From: Sphingosinicella sp.
GTDB taxonomy: Bacteria; Pseudomonadota; Alphaproteobacteria; Sphingomonadales; Sphingomonadaceae
DNA: 64,000 bases
Assembly (NCBI GenBank): GCA_013816585.1
Contig: JACDEE010000001.1
Span: forward strand, 325,001-389,000
Reading direction: 5' to 3'
Position 1 is the stretch's first letter; each line of letters starts with the position of its first letter. Below are positions 7,404 through 58,637 of this stretch, in pieces. The translations under genes were made by a program, and so were the position numbers. A model generated the notes under the pieces. That model made no database searches and was not told the origin of the DNA. It saw nothing but the letters and a program-made list of their open reading frames with translations.

Positions 7404-7478
7404 GCGGGCGTAGCTCAGGGGTAGAGCACAACCTTGCCAAGGTTGGGGTCGAGGGTTCGAATCCCTTCGCCCGCTCCA
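7404..7478 (+). tRNA. tRNA-Gly (GCC), CCA encoded
   Basis: gcgggcg acceptor pairs with cgcccgc; anticodon arm caacc-ttGCCaa-ggttg; T-arm gagggttcgaatcccttc; terminal CCA. Confidence 0.96.
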
Positions 7479-7656: not shown

Positions 7657-7682
7657 TATATAGTTTAGAGCGGAACTATATA
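7657..7682. promoter_or_regulatory. Inverted repeat abutting the start of the HTH gene (candidate autoregulatory operator)
   Basis: TATATAGTT-N8-AACTATATA, perfect 9-bp arms; the right arm touches the ATG at 7682. Confidence 0.6.
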
Positions 7683-8140
7683 TGAGAAGCGGCTTACTTC
7701 AGGGATATAACGTCCAAACGGTCGCGGCGCTCGCCGGGCTCACGCCGCCAATGGTGAATTACCTTTGTCGGCAAAAGCTGATACAGCCGAGTCTGTCCAA
7801 GCAGCGCGGCCGCGGTCGGCCGCTGAGCTACAGCTTCGGTGATATCGTCATGTTGCGAGTAATCGCTCGCCTTTTGAACTCTGGTGTCTCGGTTGAGCGT
7901 GTGCGGAAGGCGTTTACAGCGCTCCGCAAACACCATCCGGCCATAACACCGACCACTCTCCCGGCTCGCTACCTAATTACTGATGGGAAGAGTGTCTTTC
8001 TGTCGGACGGAAAGGCTCAACTCGAAGAGCTAGACGGGCGAGGCCAGATGTCCTTTGCATTCGTTTTAGAACTTTCCACGATTCGCGATGAAGTCTTGCA
8101 GGAGGCTAAAAAGCGCGAGCTACGATTGAGGAGTGCGTGA
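7682..8140 (+). CDS. MerR-type HTH transcriptional regulator
   Basis: YNVQTVAALAGLTPPMVNYLCRQKLIQPS N-terminal HTH plus RPLSYSFGDIVMLRVIARLLNSGVSVERVRKAF wing/helix region. Confidence 0.82.
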   Translation: MRSGLLQGYNVQTVAALAGLTPPMVNYLCRQKLIQPSLSKQRGRGRPLSYSFGDIVMLRVIARLLNSGVSVERVRKAFTALRKHHPAITPTTLPARYLITDGKSVFLSDGKAQLEELDGRGQMSFAFVLELSTIRDEVLQEAKKRELRLRSA

Positions 8141-8694
8141 TGGCGACGGCCGCGGTAGCAACAGGATTGGTGGAACGCCTTCCGATGGGCGAACTGATGG
8201 ACCGAATCCAGCTTGAGCAATTCAAGCACGATGAGCTTTATCATCGCGAGATTAGTCGCCTGACGACGCAGGCGAAGCTCAAGCATATGGCGCTTCACTT
8301 CGCGAAGTATGCGGGGAACCTCATGGAGTCTGGCGGCGATCATGCTGCATTCAAGCGGATCGTCACCGATGTTTTCGTGATTGCTACGTCAACCGCAAAT
8401 GCCTTGAACGTGCGCCTTGCAAATGAACTTACGGATGTTGCCGCTATCAGCATGGATTCGATGGCCGCAATGAGCGAAGCGCTTACGATCAATGCGGGCC
8501 GGATGGCGGCAGCTTGTGAGAAGCTAGACCATCTTGAGGACTATCCGTTCCGACCTGTCATCAAGGCGGCGGCGATTGAACTTCTGCGGGCATCTCTGAG
8601 CGTTTGCCTCAAGGAGGGCTGGGTGATTCAAGAACTCGTGTCGTGGCGACTACAGCCAATCAAAGAGAAGTCGATTTTCTACGGCAAGCTCTGA
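8137..8694 (+). CDS. Hypothetical all-alpha protein, possibly related to the MazG-like NTP pyrophosphohydrolase superfamily
   Basis: Starts at the stop of the HTH gene (gtgatg/tga overlap); predicted mostly helical; KLKHMALHFAKYAGNL and TDVFVIATSTANALNVRL resemble MazG-like helices, but a full ExxE motif is not evident. Confidence 0.6.
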   Translation: MMATAAVATGLVERLPMGELMDRIQLEQFKHDELYHREISRLTTQAKLKHMALHFAKYAGNLMESGGDHAAFKRIVTDVFVIATSTANALNVRLANELTDVAAISMDSMAAMSEALTINAGRMAAACEKLDHLEDYPFRPVIKAAAIELLRASLSVCLKEGWVIQELVSWRLQPIKEKSIFYGKL

Positions 8695-8696
8695 CC

Positions 8697-9542
8697 ATGG
8701 CATTCTGGAGCGGCGACAAACTCACCAACGCCATACCGGCGAAGAAGATCGTCGAGCCATTCTACCCAAAGCAGGTGGATTGCTCATCGTACACTCTCAC
8801 GTTGGGCGAGGAATACTTCATCACGCCCGATTACACCGTGCCAGTGCGGGAAAATACCACCAAGGCTCTAACCGAGTCTAAGCGTTGGGATCAGACGGTT
8901 CCTGTGGCCAAGCGGGTAATGGGCGGACCGCTTAACATCCCCGCTGGCCAATTCGCTTTTCTAATGACGGAGGAGGTGCTCAACATCCCTCCAAATGTGA
9001 TGGGATTTATATCTCTAAAGTCTAACGCCAAGTGGCGAGGTCTTATCAATGTGTCTGGATTTCACGTCGATCCGGGCTTCCAAGGAAAGCTGATTTATTC
9101 CGTCTACAACGCTGGTCCCTCACCGATCCAGTTGAAGCGCGGCCAAGATCTCTTCCTTCTCTGGCTGGCTGACCTCGACAGGAGCGCAACAACCGATTTC
9201 GCTAAACCTGGGAACGCTTCTCCTCTTTTGGAAATTCCTCCCCAGATGGTCACAGACGTCAACCGTCAGATTCACTCGCTTGGTCAGTTGTCCACTAAGC
9301 TTGCGTCGCTAGAAAGTAAGATCCAGTTCATATGGTGGGCGGGAGGGTTGATTGGCGCGCTAGCGGCAATCTCGCTCGGAGTATTGGCCCTCCGGCCGAG
9401 TTCCGAGACGCCAGCACCGACCGCACCGCCACCATCGGCAGCCCCGGCGCCACGGGTAGCGCCTCCGGCTCCCTCGCCACCAACACCGGGCGTAGCACCA
9501 ACCTCACTCCCAATCCCGCAGTTGAATCAGGCGACAGAGTGA
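8697..9542 (+). CDS. dCTP deaminase/dUTPase-fold protein with C-terminal transmembrane segment and Pro/Ala-rich tail
   Basis: VDCSSYTLTLGEEY, IPAGQFAFLMTEEVLNIPPNVMGFISLKS and GFHVDPGFQGKLIYSVYNAGPSPIQLKRGQ match the DCD/trimeric dUTPase fold; TM segment FIWWAGGLIGALAAISLGVLAL; ATG at 8697 follows the previous stop. Confidence 0.82.
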   Translation: MAFWSGDKLTNAIPAKKIVEPFYPKQVDCSSYTLTLGEEYFITPDYTVPVRENTTKALTESKRWDQTVPVAKRVMGGPLNIPAGQFAFLMTEEVLNIPPNVMGFISLKSNAKWRGLINVSGFHVDPGFQGKLIYSVYNAGPSPIQLKRGQDLFLLWLADLDRSATTDFAKPGNASPLLEIPPQMVTDVNRQIHSLGQLSTKLASLESKIQFIWWAGGLIGALAAISLGVLALRPSSETPAPTAPPPSAAPAPRVAPPAPSPPTPGVAPTSLPIPQLNQATE

Positions 9543-10051
9543 CCGCCAGTGGCCTGTTCCCGCATCTGAACGGCGCCATTCTTTCTGATTGCGAGCGTTA
9601 CCGCTACACGCTCACCCGAGAGTGGAATGGAAGTGACCCGCCGCTTACGTTCATCATGCTCAACCCTTCGACAGCGGATGCGACGGTGGATGACCGCACC
9701 ATCCGGCGTTGCATGGGCTTCGCCCAAGCCCGCGGCTTCGGCGGGCTTCGCGTAGTAAACCTCTTCGCCTTCCGATCCACCGACCCCGGAAACATGAAAG
9801 CGGAATCTCACCCCATAGGGCCGGACAACAACATGCATCTCCGCGCTGCCCTCATGACTGCCAACGAGGCCAACGCCCCTGTCATCGCTGCGTGGGGCGC
9901 CGATGGCGTTCATAGAGGCCGGGATGCAGAGGTGCGTGCGCTGGCAATGGAATGCGGCGTCACGCTCATGTGTCTTGGCGTGACCAAACATAGGCACCCG
10001 CGACATCCGCTCTATATTCGGGCCACTCAAAGGTTCGTCAGCCTGCCTTGA
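9539..10051 (+). CDS. DUF1643 domain-containing protein
   Basis: MLNPSTADATVDDRTIRRCMGFAQARGFGGLRVVNLFAFRSTDP is the DUF1643 signature; GTG start at 9539 overlaps the upstream TGA (GTGA). Confidence 0.88.
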   Translation: MTASGLFPHLNGAILSDCERYRYTLTREWNGSDPPLTFIMLNPSTADATVDDRTIRRCMGFAQARGFGGLRVVNLFAFRSTDPGNMKAESHPIGPDNNMHLRAALMTANEANAPVIAAWGADGVHRGRDAEVRALAMECGVTLMCLGVTKHRHPRHPLYIRATQRFVSLP

Positions 10052-10420
10052 GTGCATCCGGGAGGGCGCTCTCATTCGAAAAAATCGATCTCGCTGCGTC
10101 GGCCGCGCGGCCTTTTCGATATCGACATCGGGGAGCACGGTCACGGCCCGACGTTCGTGGCTAGTCGTCAACGAACTAGCCGGTCCCCTGTTCACCCCCC
10201 GTACCGCCCTCGCCAGCCCCGTCATAACGTTTATGGGAGCCCGGGGCATGGTGGCCGTCTTTTGCGGACAAGGTGGTACTCGGGGAGCATGGCCAGTCGC
10301 TTCGTCGGCCGCTTCTGATGCGAGGAAGCAAGCTCGCGCCGCTTCCGCGGCAATATAGAGCACCGCGCCGGGCAACCCGGGCGGCTGGTGCGTCGCAGCT
10401 TTGCAACCGCACCTTTGCGT

Positions 10421-10885
10421 CTAACCCGATCCCCGGCCCTTCCCGGCCAGCGCCTGCTTGGCGCACCGGACCAGATCGTCGGGGTCGAATGGCTTGGGGA
10501 CGAAATCCACAGCGCCGTTGTGGAAGGCGCTGACCGCGTCGCGTACCGATTTGCGGCTGGTCACCACGACCACGGGGATAAGCGCCAGATCAGGATCGTC
10601 GCGCATGTGGCGCAGCACTTCCTCGCCACTCGTGACGGGCATCACCATATCCAGCAACACGATCTGCGGGGGGCGCTCCCGAAGCCTGGCGATGGCAATA
10701 CTGCCATTGGCCGCCTGCATGACGTCAAACCCGCCCCGCTCCATATGCAGGGTCATCAGGTCCAGCGTCATTTCGTCGTCGTCGCAGATGAGGGCGAGAG
10801 GTTTGCCCGCATTTTCGGAGTCCCCGCCACCGTTCGAAACGGCGTCCGGCGCATCATCGCGATCAGCTTGGGGTTCGTCGCTCAT
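10421..10885 (-). CDS. Response regulator (CheY-like receiver domain)
   Basis: ALICDDDEMTLDLM, QIVLLDMVMPVTSGEEVLRHM, VVVVTSRKS and GAVDFVPKPFDPDDL. Confidence 0.92.
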   Translation of the reverse strand: MSDEPQADRDDAPDAVSNGGGDSENAGKPLALICDDDEMTLDLMTLHMERGGFDVMQAANGSIAIARLRERPPQIVLLDMVMPVTSGEEVLRHMRDDPDLALIPVVVVTSRKSVRDAVSAFHNGAVDFVPKPFDPDDLVRCAKQALAGKGRGSG

Positions 10886-57914: not shown

Positions 57915-58637
57915 TTAGCCCGCCGATTCCGGCAGCCGCCAGTCGATCGGCTTCAGGCCCCGCTCCTTCAAAAAGGCGTTGGCTTTGGAGAAATGCTTGC
58001 AGCCAAAAAAGCCGGTATGCGCGGACAAAGGCGAAGGATGAGGCGCCTTCAGCACCAGATGGCGGCCGCCTTTGTCGATGCTGTCGACGAACGCGGCCTT
58101 CTTCTGCGCGTGGCTGCCCCACAACATGAAGATGACTGGATCCGGCCGGTTATTGACCAGGCGGATCACGGCATCGGTGAAACGCTCCCACCCGCGGCCC
58201 TGGTGCGAAGCCGCCTGGCCCATTTCGACCGTCAGCACCGAATTCAGCAGCAACACGCCTTGCCGGGCCCAATGGTCGAGGAAGCCGTGCCGAGCGCGGG
58301 GGACTCTCAGGTCGCTTTCAAGCTCCTTGTAGATGTTGACCAGCGAAGGCGGCGGTCGGACGCCTGGCCGAACCGAGAAGCACAGGCCATGCGCCTGGCC
58401 CTGACCATGATAAGGATCCTGCCCCAATATGACGACGCGAACCTCGTCCAGCGGAGTGAGATCGAGCGCTCGAAACCAGTCATTGCCCTTCGGGAAAATG
58501 CTTTTCCCGGCCTCTTTCTCGGCCGCTAGAAAGGCCTTAAGGGCGTGCATATAGGGGCTGTCGAATTCAGGCTTTAATGGTTCCAGCCAGCTTGGGTGAA
58601 GCCTGACATTGCCTTCCGCCTTCGGCCCCTCCGTCAT
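57915..58637 (-). CDS. ung: Uracil-DNA glycosylase
   Basis: [56 protein letters not shown]. Confidence 0.96.

Follow-up and report, generated by a model that had tools for sequence, protein, structure and literature searches.

A compact, putatively mobile cassette beside tRNA-Gly in Sphingosinicella sp. joins a helical His/Asp-rich protein to a predicted membrane-anchored DCD-fold protein and DUF1643

The window, by which we mean the whole 64,000-nucleotide stretch of Sphingosinicella sp. DNA that was analysed, contains four co-directional genes (g1 to g4) that overlap or nearly touch, 3' of a tRNA-Gly(GCC) gene and a 9-bp dyad. The features are as follows.

7404..7478, + strand: tRNA-Gly(GCC), placed by ARAGORN; edge of an integration hotspot
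7657..7682 (arms 7657-7665 and 7674-7682), no strand: perfect dyad with 9-bp arms, TATATAGTT-N8-AACTATATA, directly at the start codon of g1
7682..8140, + strand: g1, MerR-family regulator, 152 aa (Pfam MerR_1)
8140..8694, + strand: g2, all-helical protein, 184 aa, Pfam-less, core partner of g3 (alignment, AF2 model)
8697..9542, + strand: g3, DCD/dUTPase-fold domain with a predicted C-terminal membrane helix (Pfam DCD, alignment, PDB profile matches, hydropathy)
9539..10051, + strand: g4, DUF1643 protein, 170 aa (Pfam DUF1643, AF2 model, tree)
10421..10885, - strand: receiver-domain gene, in the same variable interval as the cassette

The g2 ATG at 8140 overlaps the g1 stop codon (TGATG), with a GTG at 8137 as an alternative start; g2 and g3 are 2 nt apart, and g3 and g4 overlap in GTGA. 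The original prediction, made from the letters alone, had described four joined genes just 3' of tRNA-Gly(GCC), AT-richer than their surroundings, and each of these points is borne out by the ORF coordinates, the placement of the tRNA and the base composition. The GC contents of g1, g2, g3 and g4 are 0.556, 0.546, 0.561 and 0.612 versus 0.62-0.69 for the flanking genes, and GC3 is 0.61-0.69 versus 0.73-0.80. The flanks are also as described, with housekeeping genes on both sides (thioredoxin and TPR upstream, receiver domain downstream). The receiver-domain gene has native GC, lies on the opposite strand and is probably outside the cassette proper.

The conserved core of the cassette is the pair g2 + g3. 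Sixteen distinct loci, in Alphaproteobacteria, Gammaproteobacteria (Acinetobacter) and Acidimicrobiia, have g2 as the gene immediately before g3. Four of 387 evenly sampled alphaproteobacterial genomes contain g3 and three contain g2, each time next to g3; at the remaining g3 locus (L151) MazG takes the place of g2. Viruses hardly carry the pair: g2 has no match in 50,697 phage records and is found at only two loci among 2.9 million viral contigs, which led us to reject a phage origin of the whole cassette. At both viral loci (L059, 5956-7140, and L060) g2 is intact and g3 gives way after ∼ 45 residues to unrelated sequence, Mu-like on visual inspection; a phage has probably inserted in, or become joined to, a host g3 gene.

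g3 is recognized by Pfam DCD (66 bits, 4e-18), and its closest PDB profile matches are dCTP deaminases (8.5e-24). The DCD/dUTPase-fold domain (about residues 5-160) is followed by a linker, a membrane helix at about residues 214-232 and a Pro/Ala-rich tail. The C-terminal hydrophobic helix is predicted in 23 of 24 homologues, in agreement with the membrane-anchored DCD-fold protein originally proposed; the exception (L054) ends early. Broken copies of g3 occur: in L054 (7598-8200) an internal stop is reported, and in L055 (7572-8425) the gene is split into two frames. Like the dCTP deaminase/DCD family (PF22769, TIGR02274), g3 has the DCD fold and a nucleoside hairpin with a conserved Asp; this hairpin, GL[IV]N[VI]SGFHVD, is invariant in 24/24 homologues save at two conservative positions. 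It differs from that family in having lost the catalytic Glu, the motif-2 Ser and the second Arg, in its TIGR02274 (dCTP deaminase equivalog) score of 73.2 bits, below the cut-off of 92.8, and in its C-terminal membrane helix. In alignments to 4xjc, 19 of the 24 homologues, the window copy included, have Ser at the position of the deaminase Glu and the other five have Ala, LIYSVYNA standing where 4xjc has ITLELFNA. The motif-2 Ser position varies among them (S9 A11 T3 F1), and the motif-2 Arg position, which precedes it, is basic (K/R) in 24/24. Nor does g3 resemble a complete trimeric dUTPase: its PF00692 score (12.6 bits) is below the cut-off of 22, and the linker and membrane helix replace the C-terminal motif 5 region.

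This residue pattern fits a pseudo-enzyme that binds a ligand and is anchored in the membrane, although g3 may retain some dUTPase-like activity despite the loss of deaminase residues. The proposal that the cassette 'senses or depletes nucleotides' is thereby narrowed: since the deaminase catalytic residues are lost, the reading shifts toward sensing and depletion loses ground. Anti-phage dCTP deaminase systems (DCD/AvcD reports) work by dCTP depletion. The g3 cassette shares their pyrimidine deoxynucleotide theme. It is nonetheless unlikely that g3 depletes dCTP, as it has neither the deaminase catalytic residues nor a PADLOC match. In the PADLOC search g2, g3 and g4 had no match at E ≤ 1 and the sole cassette match was a weak one of the g1 MerR domain to mad1, consistent with the earlier remark that the gene set was not recognized as a named system.

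The AF2 model of g2 is all-helical (pLDDT 82, pTM 0.82) and gave no significant PDB fold match with Foldseek. Alignment identified nine invariant residues, H30, D31, H35, H49, H53, K56, D77, D130 and H131, a His/Asp/Lys set that resembles a metal or catalytic site. g2 had been tentatively labelled MazG-like, and the searches do not support this label: Pfam gave no MazG-type match for any of 14 g2 members, the fold search was negative and hhalign against the MazG of sister loci returned a probability of 5.7%. Assignment as an all-alpha NTP pyrophosphatase is likewise not supported; g2 has His/Asp in place of the Glu motifs ExxE...ExxD. Among the g3 loci one has both g2 and MazG, 15 have g2 only, eight MazG only and six neither. 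The two are thus near-exclusive (g2 versus MazG/MazG_C, Fisher p = 0.004 with loci treated as independent of kinship), which suggests replacement rather than homology.

That g4 is a DUF1643 protein, as originally named, is confirmed by Pfam PF07799 (148.9 bits against a cut-off of 22.5, 1e-43). DUF1643 adjoins g3 in six loci, on the same strand in the window, L031 and L040 and convergently in L049, L050 and L152. In the family as a whole it occurs in 18 of 251 genomes and is the immediate neighbour of g3 in three of these 18. In the DUF1643 tree the cassette copies are not monophyletic: those of the window and L031 lie among viral sequences, those of L040, L049 and L050 are grouped with host copies nested inside, and that of L152 stands apart on a long branch with uncertain placement. 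DUF1643 has joined g3 on at least two separate occasions (starred branches), probably in three separate events, and this repeated recruitment argues for a functional link. Together with the conserved g2-g3 pair it shows that the cassette is not a chance array of ORFs. The AF2 model of DUF1643 (pLDDT 92) was compared with the PDB, and the UDG 5gn2 had the highest probability among the best 50 matches (prob 0.96, E 0.019, TMq 0.43). Profile comparison with family-4 UDGs and rhizobial UDGs was negative. A UDG-like fold is therefore suggestive, a lead and not a result. DUF1643 is abundant in viral contigs and is a mainly phage-borne family; it is also carried by an ISL3-family element and by SCC elements (PMC13231603, PMC10821479), in one SCC element near a uracil-DNA-glycosylase inhibitor (PMC10821479).

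g1 scores 35 bits with Pfam MerR_1 (cut-off 21.6, 1.6e-8), which upholds its identification as a MerR-HTH protein. A perfect 9-bp dyad appeared in 0.55% of Markov resamples (212 bp), and we take that at 7657..7682, which the original prediction did not mention, as a candidate MerR operator. Co-occurrence of all four genes in other genomes had been named as the check on the original prediction, and it stands for three of them: g2 + g3 form a widespread pair that DUF1643 repeatedly accompanies, but no MerR gene was found in any other g2/g3 locus examined. MerR was accordingly rejected as a conserved member. The nearest relatives (L031, L049, L050 and L152) fill the first-gene slot with an unrelated protein of ∼ 110-130 aa that has no Pfam match and is RHH-like by eye. 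The nearest plasmid relative of the g1 MerR (41% identical) heads an operon on a Bradyrhizobium quebecense plasmid (L260, 4001-6989) that continues with a 146-aa protein and a 462-aa HExxH-type protein (HEVGH) and ends in a DCD gene. In this DCD gene the catalytic Glu is intact and a membrane helix is not obvious, and the operon differs from the g3 cassette. A DCD-ending operon behind a g1-related MerR was not present in two actinobacterial plasmid relatives or one Mycobacterium relative, making L260 a single case.

The distribution and position of the cassette support the proposed horizontal acquisition. Six same-genus genomes of the family sample lack g3, and in one of these six (L176) the tRNA-Gly lies ∼ 80 bp from the next conserved gene, an empty site with neither cassette nor receiver gene. 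A position fixed across relatives with normal composition is thus not what we found: the site can be empty and the GC is low. A Sphingorhabdus MAG (L031), with a g3 70% identical to that of the window, carries its cassette at the same tRNA-Gly, as does L152, from a different alphaproteobacterial family, where the thioredoxin-TPR/Lon-like synteny is also the same; in L050 the cassette adjoins tRNA-Arg. After tRNA-Gly(gcc) every same-genus genome has its own, unrelated genes (L178-L185, ∼ 0.1-8 kb), which marks the interval as a general variable hotspot. In L180 the tRNA 3' end occurs a second time there. An integrase/att model for the window was rejected, as the tRNA 3' end is not repeated before the downstream gene and the interval contains no integrase. 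Several genomes have the minimal cassette in the chromosome, and relatives of it are frequent on plasmids.

These relatives are larger. On rhizobial, roseobacter and other plasmids g3 is accompanied variously by UDG, MazG + MazG_C, an XRE regulator, ImmA/I42 (M78), the helical domain of 5-hmdU DNA kinase (HMUDK_hel), ACPS, a C1 peptidase or a TS-like protein; the TS-like, after_C1 and AcpS labels coincide on one ORF in some loci, and we rely on the Pfam-checked ones only. On haloarchaeal plasmids g2 is found with HMUDK, TS-like, ImmA and C1 genes. The nucleotide-centred context that had been proposed is therefore recovered in the relatives, as is the proximity to known defence genes: a type I RM system with a GajA/AriA-like ATPase, AbiEii with a type IIG enzyme, a ThsB TIR and Shedu lie beside some of them. 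In Natronomonas gomsonensis (plasmid; L256, 4102-6530) the genes behind g2 encode a SLATT-like 2TM protein (DUF4231) and a TIR protein of ThsB type, and the set adjoins a 5-hmdU kinase-like gene. The SLATT-like protein and TIR here occupy the place of g3 behind g2. SLATT-type 2TM effectors are, as g3, small membrane proteins, but g3 differs in having one predicted helix and a nucleotide-binding-fold domain and has no sequence relation to them.

DefensePredictor reports anti-phage activity for systems with thymidylate synthase and 5-hydroxymethyluracil kinase (PMC13092281) and predicts systems with aGPT-PPlase, MazG, MazG-C, dUTPase and UDG (PMC13092281, citing Burroughs et al., 2015). The g3-family islands share UDG, HMUDK and MazG_C with these predicted nucleotide-modification defence systems (aGPT-PPlase/HMUDK, MazG + MazG_C, dUTPase, UDG), a comparison by component names in which 'dUTPase' is the label of PMC13092281 and may differ from g3. 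They are also alike in their nucleotide/DNA-base theme, mobility and defence neighbours, and the islands carry TS-like, ImmA and C1 genes as well. The window copy differs, having no HMUDK, UDG, MazG_C, TS, ImmA or C1 peptidase; a scan of a 15-kb window segment for HMUDK, UDG and MazG_C beside g3 gave none, only g2, g3 and g4. We found no published description of the minimal regulator-g2-g3-DUF1643 form.

We conclude that the cassette is probably a real, conserved and mobile nucleotide-centred module. The basis is the core pair, the predicted membrane anchor, the lost deaminase residues, the repeated pairing with DUF1643, the swapped regulators, the sporadic spread at tRNA sites and on plasmids and the larger relatives with DNA-base and nucleotide enzymes. 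That the window copy is a compact mobile variant of the predicted nucleotide-centred conflict systems, most likely anti-phage ones, is our preferred reading, at about even odds. Counting against it are the position among housekeeping genes and not in a defence island, the missing PADLOC matches of g2 to g4 and the MerR gene, found in no other g2/g3 locus; DUF1643 is mainly phage-borne, and a counter-defence or metabolic role fits this too. As a working model, we speculate that g3 would trimerize in the manner of DCD proteins at the inner membrane, facing the cytoplasm, and bind a pyrimidine deoxynucleotide via the invariant hairpin. The ligand is a guess; plausible candidates are nucleotides that are abnormal or made by phages, for instance dUTP or hydroxymethyl-dUTP. 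Binding would alter the membrane part of g3 or its partners, the effector step again being a guess. In the cytosol the His/Asp-rich g2 would partner g3, whether as an adaptor or as a metal-dependent nucleotide enzyme. DUF1643 would act on a base or nucleotide in the slot held elsewhere by UDG or 5-hmdU DNA kinase, and MerR would control expression from the dyad promoter. This receptor mechanism for g3 in particular is tentative. Equally doubtful is the broader idea that the dead DCD/dUTPase fold serves anti-phage systems as a general membrane nucleotide receptor or effector with interchangeable base enzymes (UDG, 5-hmdU DNA kinase, DUF1643), and that DUF1643 is a new base-acting, possibly UDG-like, family recruited from phages. 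The cassette would be a minimal (2.4 kb), testable form of the predicted nucleotide-modification defence islands, a large class of unexplained mechanism. Its two-gene core of helical His/Asp protein and membrane DCD pseudo-enzyme could be the sensor, and it offers a functional lead for DUF1643, a phage-common family without known function.

The same genes could instead keep house for the nucleotide pool or for uracil in DNA and together lower misincorporation: g3 would be a membrane-bound enzyme of dUTPase type, g2 would hydrolyse nucleotides in a housecleaning role and DUF1643 would be a base enzyme of the repair kind. The match of the DCD fold and the HVD-motif Asp to the dUTPase/DCD nucleoside site, the UDG or MazG genes in g3 loci and the glycosylase inhibitor near DUF1643 in the SCC element are consistent with such a role; the variable motif-2 Ser position, the replaced C-terminal motif region, and a sporadic mobile spread with partner swapping that would be atypical of it, make it unlikely. 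Plasmid location and the abundance of DUF1643 in viral contigs and on ISL3-family and SCC elements would also be expected of a cassette that shields plasmids or phages, and not the host, from host restriction or glycosylases. This we consider quite improbable, given the near absence of g2/g3 from viruses, the resemblance of both viral g2 loci to host genes interrupted by phage DNA and the chromosomal location of the minimal form in several genomes.

A role in DNA hypermodification, by which the host would synthesize a modified pyrimidine or insert it into its DNA, is suggested by relatives with TS-like, 5-hmdU DNA kinase and 'base hypermodification' genes, but the window cassette has no TS or kinase and its g3 has lost the deaminase Glu, and the chance of such a role appears slight. 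A toxin-antitoxin-like arrangement, in which one of g2 to g4 is toxic and is neutralized by the regulator or a neighbour, had been part of the original prediction. The tight gene overlap, putative autoregulation and g3 membrane helix would suit it, as would a CcdA/CcdB-like pair, recognized from sequence, upstream of g2 in L032. However, no evidence for a toxin-antitoxin pair was obtained: the regulator is MerR in the window and the unrelated small protein in the nearest relatives, and g2 or g3 is found without a fixed partner. We give this reading very little weight.

Between DUF1643 and the receiver gene the window holds short repeats of the TCGCTGCGTCGGCCGC-type and TCGGGGAGCA-type (10091-10312). 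A UDG-superfamily gene (PF03167, 9e-19), unrelated to the cassette, lies at 57966-58454 on the - strand of the window (G000:C32:382966-383454).
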